NCBI GenBank assembly: GCA_903857865.1
Contig: CAIOGO010000015.1
Span: 62,001-126,000, forward strand
Reading direction: 5' to 3'
Length of the DNA: 64,000 nucleotides
Origin: an uncultured bacterium
GTDB lineage: Bacteria > Bipolaricaulota > Bipolaricaulia > UBA7950 > UBA9294
Positions 6,027 through 19,575 of this stretch are shown here, piece by piece. The translations under genes were made by a program, and so were the position numbers. Under the pieces are notes generated by a model that saw nothing but the letters and a program-made list of their open reading frames with translations, was not told where the DNA came from and did no database searches. Position 1 is the stretch's first letter. Each line of letters begins with the position of its first letter.

Positions 6027-6878
6027 ATGGCCCCAGTGCAGGAGAGAGAGCTGGACAAGTCCCTCCGAGATCTGTCGATCTACGGATTTAAACCCTCGGC
6101 CGCCTCATCCATCCCTCTCTACTATCAGCTCTACCTCGTGTTGCAGCGTGCGATTCGGGACGGCCAAGTGGAGCGTGGCGAGAGGTTCCCCTCAGAAGAG
6201 GCGATCGCCGAGCACTTTCGCGTGAGTCGACCGACTGCGAATCGGGCAGTCCAGGAACTCATTGGCCGCGGGTGGTTGGTCAGGAAGCGTGGGCTGGGAA
6301 CCTTCGTCCAAGAGGCGGAGATTGCGGAGTTGAGTCTGCTGAACAGGACCTTGAGTTTCGCGGATGAGATTGGCGCTCTAGACGACCATCGAACGCGGTT
6401 CGCCTATCGGGGACTCGCCAAGGCGACAAAAGAGGACGCAGCCGCCCTGCACGTTGAGGTGGGAGCAAACGTCGTGTACTTCCGCCGCGTCCATGCAGTT
6501 GGAGAGCGCATCATCATGGTATGCGACTCGCGGTTGCCCGCCGCTCGGTTCCCCGGTCTTGAGTCGGCGAAGTTCGTCGAAGGAAGCCTCTTCAAGACCC
6601 TGGATGCATCCTACGGTTGCCCGGTGCGTTTGGCTCGGCGGAGCGTCGAAGCGGCCGAAGTGCTCGATGCGGAAGTGGCTGAACTTCTCGAGGTTCCCCA
6701 GTTTGCCCCGGTCCTTCTCATGATGGGAGTCGCGTTTGACGCAGAGATGCGCCCGGTGGAGCGCATGAGCGCCCACGTCAAGGAGGGCGTCGTCTTCCGA
6801 AACGTGATTGAGTCATCGCATGAGGATCCTTCATGCGGCGGGCGCGCGGTTGCGGGGGGGCCTCAATCCGGTCCCTAG
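6027..6878 (+). CDS. GntR/HutC-family regulator with UTRA sensor domain (copy 1)
   Basis: A 283-aa protein. An N-terminal winged helix (about residues 28-98: PLYYQLYLVLQRAI, FPSEEAIAEHFRVSRPTANRAVQEL, then a GLGTF wing) is followed by a UTRA ligand domain (about 110-260). HutC-type regulators bind sugar phosphates or related metabolites. Start ATG 6027 has an AAAGGAGGGG site. It faces the last gene of the catabolic arm, and the CTAG at 6875-6878 supplies TAG stops to both genes. It is a clear paralogue of the regulator at 19580-20428, especially in the DNA-binding domain. Confidence 0.9.
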   Translation: MAPVQERELDKSLRDLSIYGFKPSAASSIPLYYQLYLVLQRAIRDGQVERGERFPSEEAIAEHFRVSRPTANRAVQELIGRGWLVRKRGLGTFVQEAEIAELSLLNRTLSFADEIGALDDHRTRFAYRGLAKATKEDAAALHVEVGANVVYFRRVHAVGERIIMVCDSRLPAARFPGLESAKFVEGSLFKTLDASYGCPVRLARRSVEAAEVLDAEVAELLEVPQFAPVLLMMGVAFDAEMRPVERMSAHVKEGVVFRNVIESSHEDPSCGGRAVAGGPQSGP

Positions 6879-7426
6879 ACGAAGGCCGGACGCCCCTCTT
6901 GGTCTACAACTCGCTTCGGGAAGCCCTGTGCCTCGATGTCTCCATAGTTGTGGCCGGCGTGGGCCGGGTAGACGCAGAACGAGACGAGCCGCTCCCGGCC
7001 AGTGTTGATCGAACGGTGCGCCCAATGGGGAGGAACGTACACAAGTCGGCCGCGCATCATGAACTCCCACGCGCAGTCCCCTTGGGCGGTCTTCATCAAC
7101 ATGTATCCCTGGCCATGCAGTGCGAGGTACGCCTCCGCGGTGTCGGGCACGCTGTGGTAGTGACCTTTGGTCATGAAGTATTCCCTGCCCACCGTTCCAG
7201 GTTCCAAGATGCTCACGCAGAAGAGCAACTGGCCTGGGACTTCGGGGACCGCCTTCTCATAGACGCGGTAGTGGACGGGGTCGCCCGCGGCGACGAGTCG
7301 CTCGAGCGCGTCCGCGTCCTTGTAGTGCCCGCGCATGTCGGATGCGTGACGGACGACGACTCGGTCCGGGTTCTCCATCGTGCCTTCGATGAGATCGAGT
7401 TGGGTTGCGAATGGGGTCATGACCAT
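6875..7426 (-). CDS. Cupin-type glucose-6-phosphate isomerase
   Basis: A 183-aa protein resembling archaeal-type cupin phosphoglucose isomerase (cPGI), which interconverts aldose and ketose phosphates using a bound metal. Visible motifs are TKGHYHSVPDTAEAY (two His and a Glu of the metal site) and VPPHWAHRSINTG (a further His). I start at ATG 7426, preceded by GAAAGGACG; upstream in-frame codons lack a ribosome site. It ends the minus-arm catabolic operon and its TAG stop overlaps that of the facing GntR gene. Confidence 0.82.
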   Translation of the reverse strand: MVMTPFATQLDLIEGTMENPDRVVVRHASDMRGHYKDADALERLVAAGDPVHYRVYEKAVPEVPGQLLFCVSILEPGTVGREYFMTKGHYHSVPDTAEAYLALHGQGYMLMKTAQGDCAWEFMMRGRLVYVPPHWAHRSINTGRERLVSFCVYPAHAGHNYGDIEAQGFPKRVVDQEGRPAFV

Positions 7427-7443
7427 AGGAACGTCCTTTCGTA

Positions 7444-8397
7444 TCACCCGCGCGCCTCGCGCGCTGTGTCGGACAGAGCGTCGAACCGGGGGCCTTCGGT
7501 GGGGATATCGATGTGGAAGACCTCGCTGATGACACGCGTCCAACCGTGGAGGAAGTAAACCCACCCGTCCTCAAGGCAAAGCCTGCGAGTTGCCTGCTGG
7601 CGTCGAGCCTGGTCGAGGAAGAGGAGGGCGCCCCGATAGTTGAAGTCCCAGGCGAACGCCTCCGCGGGGAACGAGGCGGCGTCGGTCAAGGGCGATCCGG
7701 GGCGGTCCTTGCCGAGTCCCGTGGCGTTGACGATCAGGGAGCCCGGCGCCATGCGTGCAAGCAGACGGTCGTTGTCCTCGGGGAGAGGGGCAAGTTCGTA
7801 CTCGATTCGGACCGCCGCGCGGAATGCTGCGTGAACCGCGCGCATCTCGTCGAGGCGACCTTGGCTTCGATTGGATACGACGATGCGTGCCGGCGAGGGT
7901 CGCCCTAGGACGGCGCGCTCGAGAAGGTTCACGGTGAGGGCGAGAGAGGAGCCACCTGCCCCGAGAAGGAGGACTTCCCCGGAGCCTTCACGCCAGGTCC
8001 TGTCGGGGAAGAACGCGTCCAAGGCGAGGCCGCTCGTCAGCGGGTCGAGGGCCTCTCCGACGAGGTGTTCGCCGCGCTTCGAGATGCAGCTCACCTCATG
8101 GAGCTGCGTGGCGTAGCCGCCGAGCTCATCGAAAAGGTCGTGGCTTGCCTGAAGGAGGTCCAGCTTGTGGGTGGTGACGAGCGCGCCCATGGACAGAGGA
8201 TCGCGACGGATGTGGTCCACGATGCTGCGGTAGGCTTCGCGCTCGTCGTGTAATGCGAAGTCCACGCCGACGATCTGGGCTTGAAGTCCGAGGAGCTCGG
8301 CCCAGCGGGGGAAAACACGCATGATGGACGAATGGGCGGTCGTCACCCCAATGAAGTAGATCGTGGGGACGTCTCGTTCCTCCGAGCGGTACGCCAT
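7444..8397 (-). CDS. Shikimate dehydrogenase-like NAD(P)-binding protein
   Basis: A 317-aa protein with AroE-like architecture: an N-terminal substrate domain containing GALVTTHKLDLL (the Lys aligns with the catalytic Lys of AroE), then a Rossmann fold with LLLGAGGSSLAL (about 143-154) and NRSQGRLDEM. It is longer than typical AroE (about 270 aa) and lies in a sugar catabolic operon, so it probably acts on a different hydroxy/keto substrate rather than shikimate. It follows the aldo-keto reductase by about 25 nt. Confidence 0.72.
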   Translation of the reverse strand: MAYRSEERDVPTIYFIGVTTAHSSIMRVFPRWAELLGLQAQIVGVDFALHDEREAYRSIVDHIRRDPLSMGALVTTHKLDLLQASHDLFDELGGYATQLHEVSCISKRGEHLVGEALDPLTSGLALDAFFPDRTWREGSGEVLLLGAGGSSLALTVNLLERAVLGRPSPARIVVSNRSQGRLDEMRAVHAAFRAAVRIEYELAPLPEDNDRLLARMAPGSLIVNATGLGKDRPGSPLTDAASFPAEAFAWDFNYRGALLFLDQARRQQATRRLCLEDGWVYFLHGWTRVISEVFHIDIPTEGPRFDALSDTAREARG

Positions 8398-8422: not shown

Positions 8423-9238
8423 CTACGTATCCCACTTGGGGCCGAAGTCGGGCTCGATCATTCGCTCGCCCCGCGCGAGCCCGTGGATCGTCTTCATTTC
8501 CTCGTCTGTGAGCGAAAAGTCGAAGATGTCGAAGTTCTTCGCGCAGTGCTCGCGGCTCGACGCTTTGGGAATTGCCCCCACCCCGGGTCGCTGGACGAAC
8601 CAACGGAGGGCGACCTGCGCCGCGGTCTTCCCGTACGCGGCACCGATTCCGGCGAGTGCGGCGTCATCGTGCACCTTGCCGATTCCAAGGGGCGCGTACG
8701 CCATGACGAACGCGTCGTGCTTGCGGGCGGCCGCGATGACCTTATCCTGGGCTAGGTAAGGATGGTACTCAACCTGGTTGCAGAGGATCGGAGCAGCCTT
8801 GGCAGCGCGTTCGAAAAGCACTGCGGGGAAGTTGCTCACGCCGAGGGCGCGCACGCGGCCTGCGTCGACTTCCTCCTGCATGGCTGCGAGGGTGACCTCA
8901 ATCTTGAACTTGGGATTCGGCCAGTGGATGAGCCACAGATCGACGTAGTCCGTTTGGAGTGCCTTAAGGCTCGCGTCGAGACTCTTCCGCAAGCCGGCGG
9001 GCGACATGTCGTCCATCCAGGCTTTCGTGGTGATGAACAGCTCCCGGCGGGCGATCCTAGCCGCGGCAATCCCCTGCGCCACGGCCGTTTCGTTGTCGTA
9101 GATTTCCGCAGTGTCGAGGTGGCGGAAACCGACGTGGAGCGCGTTCTCCACGGCTTTCGCGCACTCCTCACCCTTCATGCGAAACGTCCCGAATCCAAGC
9201 GCGGGCACCGAGAAGCCATGCGACTTCACAAAGATCAT
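8423..9238 (-). CDS. Aldo/keto reductase
   Basis: A 271-aa single TIM-barrel AKR. The catalytic tetrad is visible: Asp and Tyr in LDTAEIYDNE, Lys in TTKAWM and His in LWLIHWPN. The C-terminus has the IPKASSREH nucleotide-binding segment. These enzymes reduce sugar or keto carbonyls with NAD(P)H. The gene lies between the transaldolase and the shikimate-dehydrogenase-like gene of the minus arm, so reduction of an aldehyde from aldol cleavage is a reasonable guess. Confidence 0.9.
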   Translation of the reverse strand: MIFVKSHGFSVPALGFGTFRMKGEECAKAVENALHVGFRHLDTAEIYDNETAVAQGIAAARIARRELFITTKAWMDDMSPAGLRKSLDASLKALQTDYVDLWLIHWPNPKFKIEVTLAAMQEEVDAGRVRALGVSNFPAVLFERAAKAAPILCNQVEYHPYLAQDKVIAAARKHDAFVMAYAPLGIGKVHDDAALAGIGAAYGKTAAQVALRWFVQRPGVGAIPKASSREHCAKNFDIFDFSLTDEEMKTIHGLARGERMIEPDFGPKWDT

Positions 9239-9259: not shown

Positions 9260-9919
9260 CTAGCGCGTTCGCGGGCCGAAGCGCGCAGAGTACTCCCCTG
9301 AGAACGCCTGCGCCGCCGCCTCAACTGCAGGGTTCGCGCAGATCTTCCACACGAGCGACGACTGCACTGCCGCGAAGTGAGCTCCGACCTTCCAAGCAAG
9401 CGACAGTTCCTCAGGCGTTCGCACGCTCGCCGCGATCACCTGGGCCGAAAACTCCCGTTCTCTGATCAGGTCGACAATGTCGCCCACGATGCGGCATCCG
9501 TCTCCGCCGATGTCGGAGATCCTCGCCATGTAGGGAGCGAGGTATCGCGCACCGGCCAGAATGGCGAGCAGCGCCTCGTTAGCAGCGCAGATCGCCGTGG
9601 CCGTGACCGCCACGCCTTGGTTCGACAGTCGGTGGATCGCCTCGATCCCGGCGGCCGTCACCGGGACCTTGACGATGACTCGCTTGGGGTCAAGCTCCGC
9701 GAGGGCGGAGCCTTCCGCTACCATGTCAGCCGTGGCCACGCCCGACACTTGCACGAAGACAGGATCGGGCACCATGCGGAGGACCGCCTTCACCATTTGA
9801 GGCGAGGGAACTCCCGCCTCTGCGACTAGAGATGGATTGCTCGCGACGCCGCAGAACACGCCGAGCGCGTACGAGCGCTCGATGTCTCGCATGTCGGCGG
9901 AGATGAGGATCAGTTTCAA
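9260..9919 (-). CDS. Transaldolase / fructose-6-phosphate aldolase-type protein
   Basis: A 219-aa short-form transaldolase (TalC/FSA size). The Schiff-base Lys is in RVIVKVPVTAAG and the barrel strand GVAVTATAIC follows. The start is inferred as TTG 9919: the TTGA overlap with the upstream stop and the AAAGGAG site 8 nt before it fit, and no ATG lies nearby in frame at the right place. Upstream in-frame extension has no family similarity. It cleaves or transfers a dihydroxyacetone unit in the family. It is the fourth member of a coupled gene chain starting at 11686. Confidence 0.87.
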   Translation of the reverse strand: MKLILISADMRDIERSYALGVFCGVASNPSLVAEAGVPSPQMVKAVLRMVPDPVFVQVSGVATADMVAEGSALAELDPKRVIVKVPVTAAGIEAIHRLSNQGVAVTATAICAANEALLAILAGARYLAPYMARISDIGGDGCRIVGDIVDLIREREFSAQVIAASVRTPEELSLAWKVGAHFAAVQSSLVWKICANPAVEAAAQAFSGEYSARFGPRTR

Positions 9920-10275
9920 TGCGAATCTCCTTTGTGGGCTTCGATGGCGTCCAACACGAGTCCCATGTGAGCCAGTGCCGGGCCGCCGTCCATGATCACT
10001 GCGACGAAGGCGGCTTCCACGATCTCTGCCGACGAAGCCCCGTGCGCGAGAGCCGCCTTCACGTGGTACGAGATACAGCTCTCGCAGCCCTTCACGACGG
10101 ACGCGGCCACCGCGATCAGTTCCTTGTGCTTCCGCGAGAGAGCTCCATCCGCGTGCGCGGCGGCCGTGAAGCGACGCCACGCCGAAAGGGTGGGGCCTGC
10201 GTCCGACTTCGACAAGGCCTCGAGCGTCGCGGCCAGCTCGTCCGTCGCTTCGCGCATCGCTTGTACGTGGTTCAT
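9916..10275 (-). CDS. Carboxymuconolactone decarboxylase / AhpD-like protein
   Basis: A 119-aa all-helical CMD-family protein. The conserved CESCISYHVKAALAHGAS segment supplies the CxxC and downstream His of AhpD-like proteins, which act as thiol-disulfide peroxidase partners or small decarboxylases. Start ATG 10275 overlaps the DeoC-like stop (ATGA) and its own stop overlaps the transaldolase start. Its position inside a chain of aldolase genes is odd; a redox or lactone-processing step in the pathway is possible but not shown. Confidence 0.85.
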   Translation of the reverse strand: MNHVQAMREATDELAATLEALSKSDAGPTLSAWRRFTAAAHADGALSRKHKELIAVAASVVKGCESCISYHVKAALAHGASSAEIVEAAFVAVIMDGGPALAHMGLVLDAIEAHKGDSH

Positions 10276-10985
10276 CGCGAAGCTCCCTCCGCCCACGCGG
10301 CGAGGAGTCCTCGCTGAGCCGAGACGGCAACCCGTTTCGCTCCGGCGGCCCGCAAACGCTCGACGTCTGCAAGCGCAGTGACCCCGCCGATGGCTTTCAC
10401 GCCGATCGTACCTTTGGCAAGTTGGCAGAGGTGGCGAACCGCTTCTTCGGATGCCGAGCCTTCCGTGCTCGGCTGGGTCGAGACCAAGCGGAAGCCGATC
10501 GTGTTGCACACGAATGCGAACCCCGCGTCACGGGCGAGCTTGCACACGCGTTCGAGGATGTCCGGCTCGAGGGAGGCGGTCTCAAGAACGAGCTTCAGCG
10601 TTGCCCCCCGAGCCACCTGAGCGATGGCCTGCAACTCGGCGGCGGCGTCTTGCCAATGCCGAGCACGGAGGGCGCCGAAGTGAGGTACGACTTCGAGTTC
10701 CGCCGCTCCTGCAGCGACGGCAACCTCGGCTTCATGCGCCTTCACCGCGGCCGCTTGCGTGCCGAATGGATACGCGATGGGGCACGAGACGCGGCAAGCT
10801 CCGGTGAGGCTCCGCACCGCTCGCGGCACGAGAGCCGATGGCACGACGACGGTGTGCAGTCCGTACACCGTCGCCTCAAGGCAGAGCGCTTCGACGTCGG
10901 CGTACGTGATCTCCTTGCGCAGGTCCGTGTAGTCGATGGTTTGTGCTAGCGCGTCAGGCAGACGTTTTGGATGAGGGGCTCTCAT
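10272..10985 (-). CDS. DeoC-like aldolase homologue B, lacking the Schiff-base Lys
   Basis: A 237-aa TIM-barrel homologue of deoxyribose-phosphate aldolase. Against E. coli DeoC (recalled), the region around Lys167 (FIKTSTG) reads FVCNTIG here, so the Schiff-base Lys is Cys. Asp102 is replaced by Glu (ELEVV). The Lys201 equivalent is kept in IGVKAIGGV. The adjacent paralogue A has the opposite pattern. The start overlaps the A stop by ATGA, giving tight co-translation. It may be a pseudoenzyme partner or a different lyase; aldolase activity of this chain alone is doubtful. Confidence 0.85.
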   Translation of the reverse strand: MRAPHPKRLPDALAQTIDYTDLRKEITYADVEALCLEATVYGLHTVVVPSALVPRAVRSLTGACRVSCPIAYPFGTQAAAVKAHEAEVAVAAGAAELEVVPHFGALRARHWQDAAAELQAIAQVARGATLKLVLETASLEPDILERVCKLARDAGFAFVCNTIGFRLVSTQPSTEGSASEEAVRHLCQLAKGTIGVKAIGGVTALADVERLRAAGAKRVAVSAQRGLLAAWAEGASR

Positions 10986-11686
10986 GACCAGCGCTCCTTC
11001 GCTTCGTCGAGGATCTTGAAGATGGGGCTGGCGTGGATCTTGTCCGTCCCCACGGCGAAGTAGCCGAGGGCGTCTTCGAGCGTACGGACGCCTCCGGAGA
11101 CATCGACTTGGAAGGTGGACCCAAACCGCCGCCGAATGAGCAGGACGTGTTCGAGCTGGGTGTTCCAGCCGTAGCCAGACGAGGTCTTGATGCCGCGGAC
11201 GCCCGTGCGAGCGAAGGCGTCCAGGGTGTACAGGAGCTCGTCGCTCGTGAGGATCGCGGTCTCAGGCACGACCATCATCCAGATCTTGTCTTCTGCGGCC
11301 TCGACCATCGCGCGGGCATCGGACTCGACATCGTCGAACCGCCCCGACTTGATGGCGGAGAAGTACGATCCGATGTCGATTTCTTGTGCGCCGCGGCGGA
11401 TGCCCTCTCGGATGGCAGCGACCTTCGCTTCCGTGGATGCGTTGCCCACCGGGTAGGCTGCCTCGATGCCGATGCGGATGCCCTGGGGCGCAAGGATCTC
11501 GCGGGCGAGCTCAACCCAAGGCTGATCGACGAAGATGGCGTCCACGGGGGGGTATGCCGCGAAGCTACGGAGGAACTGGCGTGCGTCGTCCTCGGTTGCT
11601 GCGGGGGAGAACGTCGCGGTCATCATGCGGCTCGCGAAGGACGCGAGAGTCCTGGGCACTGTAGCGTTCTCAGTCTGCTGGAGCAT
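10982..11686 (-). CDS. DeoC-like aldolase homologue A, keeps Schiff-base Lys, lacks second Lys
   Basis: A 234-aa DeoC/FbaB-family barrel. It retains the Schiff-base Lys in GIKTSSGYG and the Asp in EIDIGSYF, but the second active-site Lys (E. coli Lys201, GFKPAGGVRT) reads FQVDVSGGVRT, a Lys to Asp change. I start at ATG 11686 behind GAAAGGAG; a further in-frame ATG at 11707 lies upstream. It heads the four-gene coupled chain to 9260. It likely cleaves a 2-deoxy or related sugar phosphate; its relation to partner B is the interesting point. Confidence 0.87.
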   Translation of the reverse strand: MLQQTENATVPRTLASFASRMMTATFSPAATEDDARQFLRSFAAYPPVDAIFVDQPWVELAREILAPQGIRIGIEAAYPVGNASTEAKVAAIREGIRRGAQEIDIGSYFSAIKSGRFDDVESDARAMVEAAEDKIWMMVVPETAILTSDELLYTLDAFARTGVRGIKTSSGYGWNTQLEHVLLIRRRFGSTFQVDVSGGVRTLEDALGYFAVGTDKIHASPIFKILDEAKERWS

Positions 11687-11707
11687 GGCTCTCCTTTCGA
11701 TGTCCAT

Positions 11708-13240
11708 TCACGGTCTCGCGCCGCCCACTTGGAGTGGTGCCAGTTGCTCGAAGATCGGCTCGAGCGCGTAATACGCCCGCTCGAAAATCGGGAAGAGCGC
11801 TCGATAGGCTTGAACGTCCGCGGGGCGCGGGTCTTCCGTCAGAGTAATCGGACACAGCCGTTCGACGATGCGGAAGTCGTCGAACACGCCTGTTCCCACG
11901 CCGGCGCACACCGCCGCACCGAGCGACGTCGCGAATTCCCCGCTCTCCAGGCACTGGATGGGGAGTCCGAGGACTCCCGCGAGGACCTGGCGCAGGACGG
12001 GGTTCCGGATCCCGCCCCCGATCATGCGCAGCGCTCGGAGAGAGGTTCCCTGCTCGGTCAAGGCGTGGAGAATGAGGTTCAGATTAAAGGCGACCCCTTC
12101 AAGAACCGCTCGCACGACATCCTCGACGGAATGGCTGCGGGCGAGGCCGACGAAGGCTCCGCGAGCGTTCTCATTCCAGTGGGGACTTCGTTCTCCAATG
12201 AGGTAGGGCAGGAAGAGCACTCCATGCGCTCCCGCCGGGCTGGCCGCAGCCCAGCGATTGAGCTGCGTGTACGCTTCCTCGGCGTTGACGTCCGTGTCGA
12301 CGGGGAAGAGGATGTCACGGATCCAGTCGTAGGAACCACCTGCGCTTTGCATCGTGCCGACCGGCATGTAGAGGTCGGGGACGAGGTGGCAAAGGTTGAA
12401 GATCCGCATGCGGGGATCGATGACGGGCCGCGCGGTGGCGATGGCGATCCAGGACGACGAGCCAAAGTAGTTGTAGCCTTCACCGGCCTCGATCACTCCG
12501 GCGCCGACCGTGGCGCACGCGCCGTCGCCGCCGCCGATGACGACCGGGACCCCCGCCAAGTCGACGCCGTCTACCTGACGTACGTGCCCGACGATCTGCG
12601 TCGACGGAACGGCCTGTGGGAAGAGGCGCTTGGGGATGTCCGCGGCCGCCAGGATCTCCCCGCTCCACTTCTTCGCTTGGAGGTCAAACGCGTTCGTCGC
12701 CGAGGCATCGGAGTAGTCCGTCACGTGTTCCCCAGTCAGTCTGCTGACGATGTAGTCCTTGGACTGGAGGACAACGCGGGTTCGCGCGTAGGTCGATGGC
12801 TCGCGATCTCGCAGCCACATGAGTTTCTCGAGAGTGTAGTTGGGGTTCGGCCGCGTCCCTGTGACCTCGTAGATGGCTTGCGCGGACATCCGCGCGAGAA
12901 GGACCTTCGTTTGGTCCGAGGCCCGCTGGTCGGCCCAGATGATGGCGCGCCGGAGAGCTTGGCCGTTGTCGTCGACCGGTACACAGCCCATCATGTGGCC
13001 ACTAAAGCTGATTCCCGCGAGTGCGGCCTTCGTGATCCCGGCGGAAGTCATGACGTGGGCCGAGGCGCGGCAAACGGCCGCCCACCACGACTCGGGGTCC
13101 TGCTCGACCCAGCCCGGCTGTTCGTAGAACGTTGGGTAGCTTTCGAAGGCCGAAGCGATTAGCTTGCCCGCTTCGTCGAACAGCGCGGCTTTGTTCCCCG
13201 TCGTCCCGAGGTCGTGCGCCAACAAGTAGGCCCTTCCCAT
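11708..13240 (-). CDS. FGGY-family carbohydrate kinase (xylulokinase-like)
   Basis: A 510-aa two-domain sugar kinase. The N-terminal phosphate loop is HDLGTTGNKAALFD (about 8-21), with a SGHMMG segment near residue 85. The C-terminal ATPase domain has GGGIRNPVLRQVLAGVLG. It phosphorylates a pentulose, hexulose or polyol using ATP. ATG 13240 has GGAGG 8 nt upstream; a TTG at 13261 is less likely. The start lies about 20 nt from the upstream dehydrogenase stop. It probably acts on the product of the isomerase-like or dehydrogenase step. Confidence 0.9.
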   Translation of the reverse strand: MGRAYLLAHDLGTTGNKAALFDEAGKLIASAFESYPTFYEQPGWVEQDPESWWAAVCRASAHVMTSAGITKAALAGISFSGHMMGCVPVDDNGQALRRAIIWADQRASDQTKVLLARMSAQAIYEVTGTRPNPNYTLEKLMWLRDREPSTYARTRVVLQSKDYIVSRLTGEHVTDYSDASATNAFDLQAKKWSGEILAAADIPKRLFPQAVPSTQIVGHVRQVDGVDLAGVPVVIGGGDGACATVGAGVIEAGEGYNYFGSSSWIAIATARPVIDPRMRIFNLCHLVPDLYMPVGTMQSAGGSYDWIRDILFPVDTDVNAEEAYTQLNRWAAASPAGAHGVLFLPYLIGERSPHWNENARGAFVGLARSHSVEDVVRAVLEGVAFNLNLILHALTEQGTSLRALRMIGGGIRNPVLRQVLAGVLGLPIQCLESGEFATSLGAAVCAGVGTGVFDDFRIVERLCPITLTEDPRPADVQAYRALFPIFERAYYALEPIFEQLAPLQVGGARP

Positions 13241-13257
13241 CGCGGTTCCTCCGATGC

Positions 13258-14295
13258 TCAACCCTTCAGGTCCACCGTGACCTTGATCGCCTTCTGCGAC
13301 GTGACGAGGTCAATGCCTTTCTGGAAATCCTCCATGCGTGGGATGACGTGGGTCACGAACTGCCCCAGGTCGATGGCGCCGGCGTCGACGAGCGCGATCA
13401 CTTCGTGGTGGACGGCGGCCTCGTCTTGGAATGTCGGCCACTGCACGAAGTGGATGGCCCAGTTGTACGGAGCTTCCTTCCAGTCGATCTCCGCGTGGGT
13501 CTCGGCGGCGATGCCGTAAACGCCGACCTTTCCGTTGAATCTCACCAGCTTGAGGCTGTCGGACATCAGCCGGTTGATGCCGACCGCGTCGATGACGTAG
13601 TCGAACCCATCCGGGCGAATGGCCTTGGCGCGAGCCACAAGGTTCTCGGCCTTCGGATCGATGGCGGCGTCGGCGCCCAAGTGCACCGCGCGGTCGCGCC
13701 GCTCGGCGTTAGGCTCACTGACGACGATGGGAGAGGCTCCCTTCAGCTTCGCGAAGCGCACCATCGACAGGCCCACCGGCCCCGTCCCGTGGATCAGCAT
13801 CGACTGGTTGCGAGCCACGCCGAACCTCTCGATGCCGGACAAGACCTCCTTCAACGTGATGAGCATCACCGCCTGATGGACGTTGAAGTGGTTCGGCACG
13901 ATCTGCTGGGCAAGGTAGATGTCGTAGAAGTCCGTGCGCCCGTCCCGTTTCATCGCCTCGATGTCGCCCACGACCCCGTACTCGGCGAAGCTGCCCCAGC
14001 CGGAGGAATAGCGCTCGTCTTCCACTTTTTCGAGAATCGAACGCAAGACGAGGTCCCCCGGCTTGAACGACGTTACCTTCTTGCTGATGTCCACGACCCG
14101 ACCGACGCTCTCGTGCCCGAGGACGGCAGGATACGTGTCGAATCCCTTGAATTGCCCGTGGATGAGCTTGAGGTCAGTCCCATTGCATATCCCGCAGCTC
14201 AGATTCTCGACGAGTGCCTGGTACTCGCCGAACTTCGGCTTTGGGAGCTGCTCCACCTTCAACGATCCATCTCGATAGACGACTACGCCCTTCAT
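13258..14295 (-). CDS. Zinc-type alcohol dehydrogenase (MDR family), no structural-zinc loop
   Basis: A 345-aa medium-chain dehydrogenase. Catalytic-zinc residues are in SCGICNGTDLKLIHG and LGHESVGR; the Rossmann glycine motif is HGTGPVGLSMVRFAK (about 178-192). The usual four-Cys structural zinc lobe after GD.V is missing: the segment GDLVLRSILEKVEDERYSSG has no Cys. Sorbitol, threonine and glucose dehydrogenase-like members of this family oxidise polyols or sugars with NAD(P). It sits between the isomerase-like gene and the kinase in the catabolic arm. Confidence 0.9.
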   Translation of the reverse strand: MKGVVVYRDGSLKVEQLPKPKFGEYQALVENLSCGICNGTDLKLIHGQFKGFDTYPAVLGHESVGRVVDISKKVTSFKPGDLVLRSILEKVEDERYSSGWGSFAEYGVVGDIEAMKRDGRTDFYDIYLAQQIVPNHFNVHQAVMLITLKEVLSGIERFGVARNQSMLIHGTGPVGLSMVRFAKLKGASPIVVSEPNAERRDRAVHLGADAAIDPKAENLVARAKAIRPDGFDYVIDAVGINRLMSDSLKLVRFNGKVGVYGIAAETHAEIDWKEAPYNWAIHFVQWPTFQDEAAVHHEVIALVDAGAIDLGQFVTHVIPRMEDFQKGIDLVTSQKAIKVTVDLKG

Positions 14296-14365: not shown

Positions 14366-15796
14366 CTACCAGGAGCGTGTCTGGAGATAGTTCCTGTACG
14401 GGACCTTCTCGAGCGGCGTGATGCTCATCCACGCGGCGAACTCGAGCACGGATTCGCTCAGATCCCCCATGGCGAGCGGGAAGTGGTGCTCGAACCCGCT
14501 GACCATGACCGTGTTCACCAAATCCATAGCGGACGCCGGATCCTGGCCGTTGAGCCTGAAGTGGCTCGCCCAACCGCGCGTGCCGCGCGGACTCATCTTG
14601 CGGCCTCCCAACGTCTCTCCCGTGGCGAGCAGGAGCCGGTTGCCGCCGTCGGTCAGCCGCATGAGGGTGAACGGAGTGGCTTTCAGAACGGCATCGAAAG
14701 CCGCTGGCGCAGGGCCCATGGTCCCAGCATCGTCGGCGGCCTGGATCAGCGTGTGTCGGCACTGCACGCACTTCTCGGTCCAGCATGGATGGCCGACGCC
14801 ACAATGCCAGAGGAGGATCGAGTCGTCCGATAGGTCAAGGGCGGAGAGGTCCATGAGAACAGGTCGGTCTCCTCCCATTGCCTTGAGGATGGCCATCGAC
14901 ACCGCGCTGGGGACGTCGCCCTCGCACGCTGCTACATGGCCGTGCTCGTTGAGGCGGCCGAGCGTTGTGCAAGCGGTCAACCCGTAGGCGGCCTGGAAGT
15001 GCGGCCAGCACGCGATACCAACCCCCGTGTATCCGTGTCGCTCGATCAATCGTTCGAGAACAGCATACACGCGGGCGAGCTTCAGGAACTCGCTGTCGGT
15101 GATCCCGTCGCTTGGCACTTCCTTGCAGAGCTGTGTCGCCAGTCGTTGAGCTTCTGCCTTGGGCAGCGCTTCGGCCTGGGCCAGGAGTTCGGTCAGCTCG
15201 TGCCGGTCGACGGTGATGTTGAACTTCGAGCGCAGGCGGCCGTCGTTCCAGTAGACATCGTAGTAGCCTTCAGGCGTGCCGCCGATGTTCGCGAACTTGG
15301 CGCCGTCGAGCTCCTTGATCGCATGCAGTGCCTTTACCGTCGGGGCGAACCGATCCCGGAACTCGCAGTCGTCGGCAAGGCCGTAGAACCACTTGTACTT
15401 CGCGCCGCGCTCGGCGAGGTACGTGCCGAGGATTCCAGAGTAGAGGTTAACGCCACAGAGCGAGTTGAGAAGGAGCGGACCCTCCGTGTGCGGCTCAGGA
15501 ACTGCCCAAAGGCCCAGGGGAACGTCCAGCGCGGCAAAGGCCGCCACGATCTCGCCCGCGCCAAAAGAGCAGGATTGGATGAGCACCATGTCCACATTCG
15601 CTTGCTTCAGTTCGCCGCAGAACGCGGCGCAGAGCTCGACGTCGTTCGTTGCGTCGGGTGCTGCCACGAGGTCGAAGCCCCACTCGCTCCCCAGCGCGCG
15701 CAGGGACGACACTGACTCGCGGTAGATCTTCTTCGACAAGGCTTCGTTGAAGCAGTCGTACCACACCCCTGCGAGTCCAATCTTGAGCTTCGTCAC
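14366..15796 (-). CDS. L-fucose/L-arabinose isomerase-family protein
   Basis: A 476-aa protein with the overall pattern of the fucose isomerase family: an N-terminal KIGLAGVWYDCFNEAL segment, a middle region with LIQSCSFGAGEIV, and a C-terminal domain containing ILLWHCGVGHP, where His and nearby acidic residues bind Mn in relatives. It would convert an aldose to a ketose; the family also includes members of unproven activity. It begins about 40 nt after the permease stop. Substrate identity is open; the neighbouring FGGY kinase suggests a ketose product. Confidence 0.8.
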   Translation of the reverse strand: MTKLKIGLAGVWYDCFNEALSKKIYRESVSSLRALGSEWGFDLVAAPDATNDVELCAAFCGELKQANVDMVLIQSCSFGAGEIVAAFAALDVPLGLWAVPEPHTEGPLLLNSLCGVNLYSGILGTYLAERGAKYKWFYGLADDCEFRDRFAPTVKALHAIKELDGAKFANIGGTPEGYYDVYWNDGRLRSKFNITVDRHELTELLAQAEALPKAEAQRLATQLCKEVPSDGITDSEFLKLARVYAVLERLIERHGYTGVGIACWPHFQAAYGLTACTTLGRLNEHGHVAACEGDVPSAVSMAILKAMGGDRPVLMDLSALDLSDDSILLWHCGVGHPCWTEKCVQCRHTLIQAADDAGTMGPAPAAFDAVLKATPFTLMRLTDGGNRLLLATGETLGGRKMSPRGTRGWASHFRLNGQDPASAMDLVNTVMVSGFEHHFPLAMGDLSESVLEFAAWMSITPLEKVPYRNYLQTRSW

Positions 15797-15835: not shown

Positions 15836-16825
15836 CTATGCGGTCCTTCTCTGTCTCAGCCGGTCGATGACAACGGCGATCACGACAAGAGTGCCGATGA
15901 GAATCTGCTGGTAGAACGGCGACACGCCGATCAAATTGGCGCCATTGCGAAGCACCCCGAGGAACAGGGCTCCAATGAGCGTGCCGACCATGCCCCCGCG
16001 GCCGCCGAAGAAGCTCGTCCCCCCAATGATAACCGCCGTGATGACGTCCAATTCCCATCCCGTGGCCGCTGCCGGCCAAGCGGAACGCGTCCGCGAGGCA
16101 AGGATGATTCCGGCGAAACCGGCCAGCGTGCTGCAGATCACGAAGTTCATGATCCGGTAACGATCGACCTTGATTCCAGAGAGTCGCGCGGCCTCCTGAT
16201 TCCCACCGATAGCATAGATGGCCCGGCCGTAAGGCGTTCGCGTCAATACCAAGTACCCGAGGATCATGAAGGCGGCAAATATGATGACAGGAATAGGAAT
16301 CGGCCCCACCATTCCCCCGCCCAGAGCGCCGAATTCCTTCGGGAGGTTCCCGATTGAGAGCCCCTTCGTGTAGACAAGAGCCAGGCCGCGCGCGATGGAC
16401 ATCATGCCAAGAGAAACGACAAACGAGTGAACCTTCGCCTTCGTGATGATGATTCCCATCACCCATCCCAGCAGTGCAGCCACCGGGAGGGGCAGAAAGA
16501 TGGCTACGAGGGGTGGCAGACCTTGGCGGGCAATGACTCCGGCGGTCAGGGCACCGCAGAGGCCGGCAACCGATCCTACGGAGAGGTCGATATCCGCCGA
16601 AAGGATCACGAACGTCATCCCCACGGACATGATGCCGATCATCGACACTTGGCGAATGACGTTGAAGATGTTGTCCACGCTTAGGAATACGGGTCGAATG
16701 CTTGTGATCACAACGCAGACGAGCAGAAAGATAAAGAAGATGCTGTATTCCCTGAAGAGCGTTTGCACCGCCCGCTTCACATGCGCACCGGTTCGTTGAG
16801 CTGACGTCTCACTCGTCTGTCCCAT
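15836..16825 (-). CDS. Sugar ABC transporter permease (RbsC type)
   Basis: A 329-aa inner-membrane protein with about eight to ten hydrophobic helices and the BPD_transp_2 segment LSADIDLSVGSVAGLCGAL typical of ribose, xylose and galactose transport permeases. Repeated charged loops (YGRAIYAIGGNQEAARLSGI) match the EAA-like cytoplasmic contact with the ATPase. It works with the ATPase at 17944-19575 and the binding protein at 16946-17914. A strong hairpin lies between it and the binding-protein gene. Confidence 0.94.
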   Translation of the reverse strand: MGQTSETSAQRTGAHVKRAVQTLFREYSIFFIFLLVCVVITSIRPVFLSVDNIFNVIRQVSMIGIMSVGMTFVILSADIDLSVGSVAGLCGALTAGVIARQGLPPLVAIFLPLPVAALLGWVMGIIITKAKVHSFVVSLGMMSIARGLALVYTKGLSIGNLPKEFGALGGGMVGPIPIPVIIFAAFMILGYLVLTRTPYGRAIYAIGGNQEAARLSGIKVDRYRIMNFVICSTLAGFAGIILASRTRSAWPAAATGWELDVITAVIIGGTSFFGGRGGMVGTLIGALFLGVLRNGANLIGVSPFYQQILIGTLVVIAVVIDRLRQRRTA

Positions 16826-16945: not shown

Positions 16946-17914
16946 CTACAGGTCGTAGTTCATCTCGGCCTCGGACCAGATGTTCGAGGGCACGAGCATC
17001 CAAGGATTGATGTCGAAGTCGAGAATCGCGGGAAGGGTACCGTGGATCAGGTACTTGCACAGCTGTTCCGTTGCCAGTCGGGCCATCTCGACCGGATACT
17101 GGATTGTTGCATCCAGCTCTCCGGCCATGACGGCTCTGAGACCGCCAGGAACGCCGTCATATCCGACGACGATGACTTTGTTGAAGTCGATGCCAGCATC
17201 GGTCATGGCTCGAATTGCACCGAGAGCGGAGTCGTCATTCGCGCAGATGACAGCGTCGAAGTCGCCGTGGGTGGCGGTGATCGCGTCTTCCATCACACGT
17301 AGCCCCTCGTCGGGCGAGAAGTGACCGCTCTGCTCGAAAACGATCTGGAGCCCAGGATAGTGAGCCAATTGCGCCTTGACACCGATTTCCCGGTTGATGG
17401 CGGGCGATGAGCCGAGTTCACCAAGGATGTGAACGATCTTGCCCACGCCGCCCAGCCTGGCCGCCACGTATTCGAGCGCCAACCGGCCGCCGAAGATGTC
17501 ATCCGCGCCGACGTGGAACAGGGTGGAAGTCTGGTTGAAAGCCCGACGGTCGAATGTTGCGACAACGATTCCCGCAGCCTTCGCCTCTTCAATGACGGGC
17601 ACAAGAACGTCCACGTTAAGAGGGTTGACCAGAATCGCGTCGACACCTTGTGAAATGAAGTTCTCCATGATCTCGACTTGCCGGCCTGCATCGCCTTCGG
17701 CGTTTTCCACAATCAGTTGGATCTCGGGGTACTTCGCCGCCTCATCGATGACGGCCTGGTACGCGTAGGTCATCCACGTGTAGGCGAGCGTCATGCATGC
17801 GAAGCCGACTTTGTAGGTCTTAGCTGGAGCAGCGCTGAAGATGGGCAGCGCCACCACACCGATCATCAGGGCAATCAACAACATGCCCTTCACAATCAAC
17901 GACGCGCGTTTCAT
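16946..17914 (-). CDS. Periplasmic sugar-binding protein (RbsB type)
   Basis: A 322-aa type-1 periplasmic binding protein. A signal peptide (KRASLIVKGMLLIALMIGVV...) precedes the mature domain. Family motifs include GVDAILVNPLNVDVLVPVIEEAKAAGI near residues 88-115, the GEPGS-like segment read as LGELGSSPA, and VIVVGYDGVPGG. It captures a sugar outside the membrane and delivers it to the RbsC-type permease. A GGAGG ribosome site precedes ATG 17914. The ligand is unknown. Confidence 0.93.
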   Translation of the reverse strand: MKRASLIVKGMLLIALMIGVVALPIFSAAPAKTYKVGFACMTLAYTWMTYAYQAVIDEAAKYPEIQLIVENAEGDAGRQVEIMENFISQGVDAILVNPLNVDVLVPVIEEAKAAGIVVATFDRRAFNQTSTLFHVGADDIFGGRLALEYVAARLGGVGKIVHILGELGSSPAINREIGVKAQLAHYPGLQIVFEQSGHFSPDEGLRVMEDAITATHGDFDAVICANDDSALGAIRAMTDAGIDFNKVIVVGYDGVPGGLRAVMAGELDATIQYPVEMARLATEQLCKYLIHGTLPAILDFDINPWMLVPSNIWSEAEMNYDL

Positions 17915-17943: not shown

Positions 17944-19575
17944 TTAGAGGTCTTCCTTCTGGGTTCGATGACGGCCGCCATCCTCACCTGTTGTGCCGGT
18001 GAGGGCCGCTGCAAGAATGGCCTCCTTGGAGATCTCGTCACGGAGCAATTCGGCGACGATGCGACCCTGGCGCAAGATGTAGATGCGGTCACACGCGTCG
18101 ACCAGTTCCTCGACCTCCGAGGAGATGAGCAGGATGCCGGCTCCTTCTGCCGCCAGCGTCCTGACCAAGCTGTAGATCTCGGACTTCGCGTTGACATCGA
18201 CGCCCCGCGTCGGCTCGTCGAAGAGGAAGATCCTTGCGCTTGAGCATAGCCATCGGGCTACGACAACCTTCTGCTGGTTGCCGCCGCTCAAGGATTCCAC
18301 GAACTGTCCGATACTAGGCGTCTTGATGTCGAGCGACTTCACCCGCTCTACCACCTCCTTTCGAATGCGATGTTGGTCCAACCAGATGCCCTTGCCGGCG
18401 ATGCGGAATCGACAGAATCTAGCGAGAGAGGCGAGTATAATGTTGTCCCGCACGGACGAGGAAAGGACCAACCCTAATTTCTTTCGATCCTCCGGGAGGT
18501 AGCAGAGACCCTCACGGACGGCATGGTTGGGGGATTTCACCCGAATCGGCTTGCCTCTGACCGAGATCTCTCCCGAATCGGCGCGATCGGCAGCGAAGAT
18601 CGCACGAGCGACTTCCGTTCTTCCCGATCCCATAAGGCCCGCAAGTCCGACGACTTCTCCCTCGCAGATGTCGAGAGAGACGTCCTCGAAAATCCCCTTC
18701 CGACTCAGGCGGTCGACGCTGAGAAGCTTGGCTCCGGGGGCGCACCCGGGATGGCGAGCCGCCCGCTCGACGCTGTGACCCACCATGAGTTGGACGAGCC
18801 GCGATGTCGGTGCGTTTTCCGCCGCCAACGTGTCGACGCAGCGGCCGTCTCGCATGACCGTGACGCGATCGGCGAGCATCCCGACTTCTTCCAACCGATG
18901 CGAGATGTAGACGACGCCGCAACCGCGATCACGCATGCTTCTCGTAACCCGGAAGAGCTCCTCAATCTCCTTGGAGCTGAGGGCCGCGGTCGGCTCGTCC
19001 ATAATGTAGATCCCCGATTCGAGCGAAAGCGCTTTGGCAATCTCCACCATTTGTTGCTTGGCGACTCCGAGACGTCGCAACGGGATCGTCGGCGAGATAT
19101 CTACCTGGAGGTCTCTGAGAATCCGCTCGGCGTGGCGGTTCATCTGCTGCCGGCTCACGATGAACTTCGTGAGAGGGCTCGAACCCTTCGGAAGGTGCCC
19201 CAGGCAGATGTTCTCCGCAACGGAAAGGTCGGGAACAAGGTTGTACTCCTGGTAGATCGTGGCGATGCCAAGCTCTTGGGCATGACGAGGGCTGCGGATC
19301 TCGGTCTCGTGGCCGCGAAGGCGAATGACGCCGGCGTCTTTCGTGTACACCCCCGCGAGGATCTTGATCAGCGTCGACTTCCCCGCACCGTTCGCGCCAA
19401 GAAGCGCGTGGACCTCTCTGGCACGAAGGTCAAAAGTGACGTCGCTTAAGGCCAGCACGCCGGGGAAGCGTTTCGAGATCCCTGTCATCTCGACGAGGAG
19501 CTGGTGGTCCACCGGGGTAACGTGATCCGGGGAGAAGGTGCTGACAGCGGGAGTGCCGATGGATGCTTGTCCCAT
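17944..19575 (-). CDS. Sugar ABC transporter ATPase, duplicated domain (RbsA type)
   Basis: A 543-aa protein with two ABC modules. The first has Walker A LLGANGAGKST (58-68), a degenerate signature (RLGVAKQQMVEIAKAL) and Walker B IYIMDEPTAAL. The second has a degenerate Walker A (GLMGSGRTEVA), signature LSGGNQQKVVVARWL and Walker B FLFDEPTRGVD. This asymmetry is typical of RbsA/XylG/MglA. It starts 4 nt after the GntR stop, so regulator and transporter share a transcript. Confidence 0.95.
   Translation of the reverse strand: MGQASIGTPAVSTFSPDHVTPVDHQLLVEMTGISKRFPGVLALSDVTFDLRAREVHALLGANGAGKSTLIKILAGVYTKDAGVIRLRGHETEIRSPRHAQELGIATIYQEYNLVPDLSVAENICLGHLPKGSSPLTKFIVSRQQMNRHAERILRDLQVDISPTIPLRRLGVAKQQMVEIAKALSLESGIYIMDEPTAALSSKEIEELFRVTRSMRDRGCGVVYISHRLEEVGMLADRVTVMRDGRCVDTLAAENAPTSRLVQLMVGHSVERAARHPGCAPGAKLLSVDRLSRKGIFEDVSLDICEGEVVGLAGLMGSGRTEVARAIFAADRADSGEISVRGKPIRVKSPNHAVREGLCYLPEDRKKLGLVLSSSVRDNIILASLARFCRFRIAGKGIWLDQHRIRKEVVERVKSLDIKTPSIGQFVESLSGGNQQKVVVARWLCSSARIFLFDEPTRGVDVNAKSEIYSLVRTLAAEGAGILLISSEVEELVDACDRIYILRQGRIVAELLRDEISKEAILAAALTGTTGEDGGRHRTQKEDL

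Follow-up and report, generated by a model that had tools for sequence, protein, structure and literature searches.

DERA (DeoC), a classic example of a Schiff-base aldolase, splits 2-deoxyribose 5-phosphate into acetaldehyde and glyceraldehyde 3-phosphate. It is a preferred synthesis catalyst and is restricted to acetaldehyde-like donors. LacD/FbaB-type aldolases, which are grouped in the DeoC/LacD family (PF01791), carry a lysine on strand 6. PDX1.2 is a (beta/alpha)8-barrel pseudoenzyme of plant vitamin B6 synthesis, where it acts together with catalytic PDX1 paralogs. The role of PDX1.2 is non-catalytic (PMC6829848). K167 of DERA is the Schiff-base residue, with a pKa lowered by K201, and D102 takes part in a proton relay (PMC6016325, PMC6244999); K201 is essential (PMC6244999). 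K167 and K201 are located on the adjacent strands 6 and 7 in the same barrel interior, close to helices on the side opposite the dimer interface, and engineered monomeric DERAs retain activity (PMC4725968). Here we report two adjacent DeoC homologues, copy A and copy B, which are encoded in the window (the whole stretch of 64,000 nucleotides of DNA that was analysed) of a genome whose nearest relatives are Candidatus Bipolaricaulota MAGs. Both copies share the fold of E. coli DeoC and align with it over the full length, but each lacks part of the catalytic set that DERA activity is known to require. The literature searched yielded no paper on a DeoC pair of this kind.

Copy A (10982..11686, minus strand) encodes a protein of 234 aa, and its partner, copy B (10272..10985, minus strand), one of 237 aa. 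The start of copy A was set at ATG 11686 rather than at the ATG at 11707 because AAAGGAG is located immediately 5' of the former. The stop codon of A and the start codon of B overlap in the sequence ATGA (10982..10985, minus strand), as originally predicted, and we infer from this overlap that the two copies are translationally coupled. Residues are numbered according to E. coli K-12 DeoC, which was included in the alignment with its own D102, K167 and K201 in register. In this alignment, D104 of copy A (codon 11375..11377) corresponds to D102 and K167 (codon AAG, 11186..11188) to the Schiff-base lysine, and D195 (codon GAT, 11102..11104) occupies the position of K201. In copy B, the position of D102 is occupied by E98 (codon GAA, 10692..10694) and that of K167 by C160 (codon TGC, 10506..10508), and K197 (codon AAA, 10395..10397) corresponds to K201; all six codons are on the minus strand. 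HMMER alignments of both copies to solved DERAs gave the same placement, so that the residues and coordinates of the original prediction are confirmed. The two gaps in the catalytic set that it described also stood, with no other lysine aligned to the vacant position of A (201) or B (167) in the alignment with E. coli DeoC. Copy A retains D102, K167, G171, G204-G205 and S238 and has Met at the positions of both D16 and K137, and copy B retains D16, K137, K201 and G204-G205. The lysine changes are not due to chance, because all of the approximately 90 other DeoC sequences checked outside the pairs keep both lysines, and they are not due to sequencing error, because the same kind of pair is present in an independent genome (G092; K167 and Asp201 in A, Val167 and Lys201 in B).

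With the NCBIfam model deoC (TIGR00126), copy A scored 108.9 bits, just below the cut-off of 117.3 bits, and copy B 130.8 bits, above the cut-off. Copy B also narrowly passes Pfam PF01791 (24.2 bits versus a cut-off of 23.8 bits) and is therefore in the same Pfam family as the LacD/FbaB-type aldolases, whereas copy A had no match to this model at E up to 0.001; the leading structure and sequence matches of both copies, however, are of the DERA type only. The AlphaFold models, which are monomers, had pLDDT values of 93.9 (A) and 85.5 (B), with a low-confidence loop directly after strand 6 in copy B. They superimposed on solved DERAs with TM-scores of mostly 0.8-0.9, and for both models the 50 PDB structure matches listed were all DERA-type aldolases. 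In the model of copy A, residue 167 falls in strand 165-167, the sixth of the barrel, and D195 in strand 193-197, the seventh, which matches the arrangement in DERA. Both copies are members of the DERA TIM-barrel fold according to the sequence and structure searches.

Copy A belongs to a rare and uncharacterised clade of DERA relatives. Two A-type patterns, which could miss divergent A genes, were scanned against the genomes of 84,980 species and recovered only the G092 contig, a second contig from Bipolaricaulota and a single one from Actinomycetota. The A-type set consists of five sequences at four loci, all derived from MAGs (three Bipolaricaulota and one Actinomycetota), and no further A proteins were found among the loci fetched from 297 Actinomycetota genomes, 40 genomes of the class of the Actinomycetota MAG and 389 domain-wide relatives. 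All five A proteins have K167 together with Asp or Glu at position 201 and lack D16 and K137; the position of Asp102 is occupied by Asp in the window and in G092 and by Asn in two other A proteins. Each of the five A genes has a DeoC neighbour (in the window, in G092, twice in G097 and at the Actinomycetota locus), and no A gene without such a neighbour was found among the four loci. The pair is thus conserved in homologous loci (five pairs of A and partner, four loci, two phyla), as the original prediction required.

G092 belongs to the same family as the window genome and to another genus, and contains the same operon split over two contigs. One contig (C55) ends with the isomerase, dehydrogenase and kinase genes, and the other (C86) carries A, B and the genes for the CMD protein, the FSA-like aldolase, the aldo/keto reductase, the AroE-like protein, the cupin and the GntR regulator; the matching gene order suggests that the two contigs adjoin. 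The B ortholog of G092 has Asp at position 102. On the G097 contig (L035/L060; the MAG has an estimated contamination of about 8%), there are two pairs, in each of which an A-type gene (K167, Glu201) is located beside a DeoC gene with all residues. The two pairs are convergent (L035 5076-7810), and this is the sole locus seen with two pairs. The Actinomycetota contig (L061) contains an A gene (K167, Glu201) and an intact DeoC gene, followed by an FGGY kinase gene, with a sugar ABC transporter alongside. A PF04199 'cyclase' family gene is located near an intact-partner pair in both phyla (L035 8716-9429, L061 231-950), which gives a hint of the substrate.

In three of the five pairs (both pairs of G097 and that of L061), D102, K167 and K201 of the partner are all intact, and the loss of Lys167 in the partner is limited to the window (Cys) and the G092 ortholog (Val). 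Orthologs of copy B are likewise present only in these two genomes, judging from the gap in bit scores (452 and 479 bits versus 128 bits for the next best). The complementary loss of active-site residues described in the original prediction therefore holds for the window, but not as a principle of the pair, and the replacement of Asp by Glu in copy B is real in the window, but not a conserved trait, because the G092 ortholog keeps Asp. At the sequence level, the replacement of K201 by Asp or Glu in A is the only general change, and the loss of K167 in copy B is a later event in the window genome and its ortholog only.

In the main tree (101 sequences), the five A proteins formed a single clade (100/100). 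The partners, including copy B, formed another (99/83), in which the three intact partners grouped together (100/97). Copy B was also placed within the partner clade in a tree from which A and the long outliers had been removed (84/77) and fell outside the clade of the intact partners in one other tree without A; its long branch makes this placement less certain. From the separate clades of A and partner it follows that the pair predates the divergence of these lineages and has been co-inherited, and it was probably also passed between phyla. A recent local duplication as the origin of A and B is incompatible with the separate clade of the A proteins.

The sugar-breakdown operon that contains the pair starts with a sugar ABC transporter (ATPase, 17944..19575; sugar-binding protein of the Peripla_BP_4 type, 16946..17914; permease, 15836..16825), followed in the order of transcription by a sugar isomerase akin to sulfoquinovose isomerase SftI and L-fucose isomerase FucI (14366..15796), a zinc-type medium-chain dehydrogenase (13258..14295; at the same place in contig C55 of G092), an FGGY sugar kinase immediately 5' of A (11708..13261), and copies A and B. 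Copy B is followed by a carboxymuconolactone decarboxylase (CMD)/AhpD-fold protein (9916..10275), an FSA/TalC-like aldolase (9260..9919), an aldo/keto reductase (8423..9238), a shikimate-dehydrogenase-like protein (7444..8397; a weak match) and a cupin protein resembling glucose-6-phosphate isomerase (6875..7564; the true start is probably further in). All of these genes are on the minus strand, and a divergent GntR/UTRA regulator is located on the plus strand at the far end of the operon (6027..6878); the last three genes are conserved in G092. The operon is tightly packed, since copy B overlaps the CMD gene by ATGA and the CMD gene runs into that of the FSA-like aldolase. The shikimate-dehydrogenase-like protein had no Pfam match at E up to 0.001 and occupies the same operon position in G092. 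A further deoC gene, whose residues are intact, is located elsewhere in the genome (L001).

The isomerase and the dehydrogenase of the operon are both distant from characterised families. The isomerase (180 bits versus a family cut-off of 700 bits) has a 72% identical ortholog in G092, its sequence matched no solved relative, and it probably has a new sugar specificity. The FGGY kinase passes only the general xylulokinase model and is 71% identical to the kinase of G092 and 36% identical to the kinase beside the pair in L061; the kinase gene adjoins the pair in the window and in L061, and in G092 it is the last gene on the neighbouring contig.

FSA/TalC aldolases are class I aldolases of sugar-phosphate cleavage, and A and B differ from the FSA-like aldolase of the operon in having the DERA fold. 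The FSA-like aldolase has the motif LILISAD, in contrast to LFIDTAN or LFIDSAN in housekeeping homologs, so that Ile occupies the position of the conserved strand-1 Asp, as it does in G092. The Schiff-base Lys and a Gln and a Tyr are retained, the latter two of which we take to be typical of FSA rather than of transaldolase. Among the four pair loci, orthologs of this aldolase are present only in the window and in G092 (63% identity); no close homolog was found in G097 or G100, which have distant homologs at most. Because the conserved strand-1 Asp is lacking, the activity of this aldolase is uncertain. The protein is the third unusual aldolase within one operon.

The best explanation of these observations, to which we assign a probability of about 0.4, is that copy A would act on the product of the FGGY kinase as a Schiff-base aldolase with a remodelled, acidic site and that copy B would be a companion without Schiff-base chemistry. 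As a class I aldolase, copy A would cleave or otherwise act on the phosphorylated sugar provided by the adjacent kinase. Asp or Glu at position 201, in place of the lysine that tunes Lys167, might serve as acid/base or bind a hydroxylated donor, and copy A should not be an acetaldehyde-type DERA. The altered site of A is under selection, since Lys167 and the acid at position 201 are present in all five A proteins, and the invariance of this lysine and carboxylate in five diverged proteins points to a functional site of another class I type. The combination is reminiscent of class I enzymes in which a carboxylate acts as acid/base. A natural branch in which the lysine is joined by a carboxylate would show the same barrel taking other donors.

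Copy B would be a descendant of the intact DeoC partner of the other loci, whose retro-aldol role would have passed to another enzyme, probably the FSA-type aldolase encoded two genes downstream. It may have been freed in this way to lose its lysine, because the FSA-type aldolase is present only in the operons that carry B. It would have been kept as a non-catalytic companion that stabilises or regulates A, perhaps in a mixed oligomer, and would supply no missing residue to the active site of A. PDX1.2 offers a possible mode for such a pair, since it too is a barrel paralog that lacks the Schiff-base lysine(s) and accompanies an active one. The residue pattern of such a pair is found in two genomes, in each of which B lacks K167 and A has it, and the two copies are co-inherited in the same operon in two genera, with substitutions in B that are biased to third positions. 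PDX1.2, however, is of unrelated family and function.

A bolder form of this explanation holds that A-type proteins (Lys167 and Asp/Glu201) have a new class I aldolase specificity and work only together with a second DERA-fold chain, the partner having become a true pseudoenzyme in the Bipolaricaulota lineage of the window. We consider this form tentative and somewhat unlikely. Since the partner is intact at some loci and without its lysine at others, the transition from enzyme to pseudoenzyme could be traced stepwise, and if the pseudoenzyme reading is true, the loci present a bacterial aldolase/pseudo-aldolase pair at two stages. If copy B is inert and copy A acts independently, the findings matter only as a correction of the automatic annotation "deoC".

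Of the possibilities raised in the original prediction, a catalytic chain with a non-catalytic companion and two different reactions are both viable at the sequence level. The main rival is a separate, non-Schiff-base reaction of copy B, e.g. as an isomerase, epimerase or lyase acting via K197, K131 and E/D98, with copy A as a Schiff-base enzyme of new specificity; the two enzymes would catalyze two steps and be neighbours by virtue of a shared pathway. Copy B keeps D/E16, K137, K201 and Gly204-Gly205 and has a remodelled loop after strand 6, with the pattern NT..FRLVST.P..EG..S common to both orthologs and absent from the intact partners, which exceeds what would be expected of a scaffold. 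At the other loci, each member of a pair appears equipped for catalysis in its own way, and the Actinomycetota genes do not overlap and are about 80 bp apart. However, the residues of copy B that vary between the orthologs include positions 167 (Cys/Val), 102 (Glu/Asp), G171 (Gly/Ala) and S238 (Ser/Ala), so that no new catalytic residue is evident; a Cys chemistry in particular is not selected, because position 167 varies. Moreover, B evolves faster than A (47-50% versus 63-64% identity between the window and G092). A second reaction catalyzed by copy B is thus a serious, if rather unlikely, reading of the pair.

Alternatively, neither copy might catalyze aldol chemistry (both acting e.g. as sensors or scaffolds), and the FSA-type aldolase of the same operon alone would cleave the C-C bond. 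Copy A could be inactive as well, since K201, which is required in DERA (PMC6244999), is missing in A. The invariance of Lys167 and the acid at position 201 in the five diverged A proteins, however, fits selection for catalysis, and A is also present at loci without an FSA gene; we regard the loss of catalysis in both copies as improbable.

A somewhat smaller chance still is given to the view that copy B is a functionless, decaying deoC duplicate and copy A a diverged DeoC, adjacent through tandem duplication. The loss of an essential lysine and the faster divergence of B would fit decay, and an origin of B from the housekeeping deoC of the family was not rejected (tree test, p-AU 0.096). Yet B has an open reading frame and the same gene order around it in two genera, changes between the two orthologs are dominated by third codon positions (0.43/0.34/0.68 for the three positions), and B, like A, is under purifying selection. 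Long invariant motifs persist in B despite its low identity between the orthologs, and the clades of A and partner are far older than the split between the window genome and G092, which argues against a local duplication.

An obligate heterodimer with a shared active site, to which each chain gives the lysine that the other lacks, would agree with the complementary residues, the ATGA overlap and the conserved adjacency, but is very improbable. Both K167 and K201 belong to a single barrel, on the side facing away from the dimer interface, and DERAs engineered into monomers are active (PMC4725968), so that a lysine of B could hardly reach the site of A. In addition, three of the five partners are fully equipped, which shows that the partner was not brought in to make up for a residue that A lacks.

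Several other candidates were rejected. When a plasmid collection was searched with both copies and two further A-type sequences, those matches that carry an annotation were labelled as ordinary deoC, and two Peribacillus plasmid clusters considered as pair candidates contain DeoC with all residues; no relatives of A or B were found in viral contigs. The extra DeoC copies in G047 and G058 are not this pair, since they belong to a different subfamily and keep both lysines. The members of this subfamily (L036 12379-13107, L037 7572-8252) have a KNSSG motif and Gln at the position of D16 and are encoded beside ribokinase and nucleoside hydrolase genes. One member has Asn at the position of D102 and Met at that of K137, and the subfamily possibly represents a further specificity.
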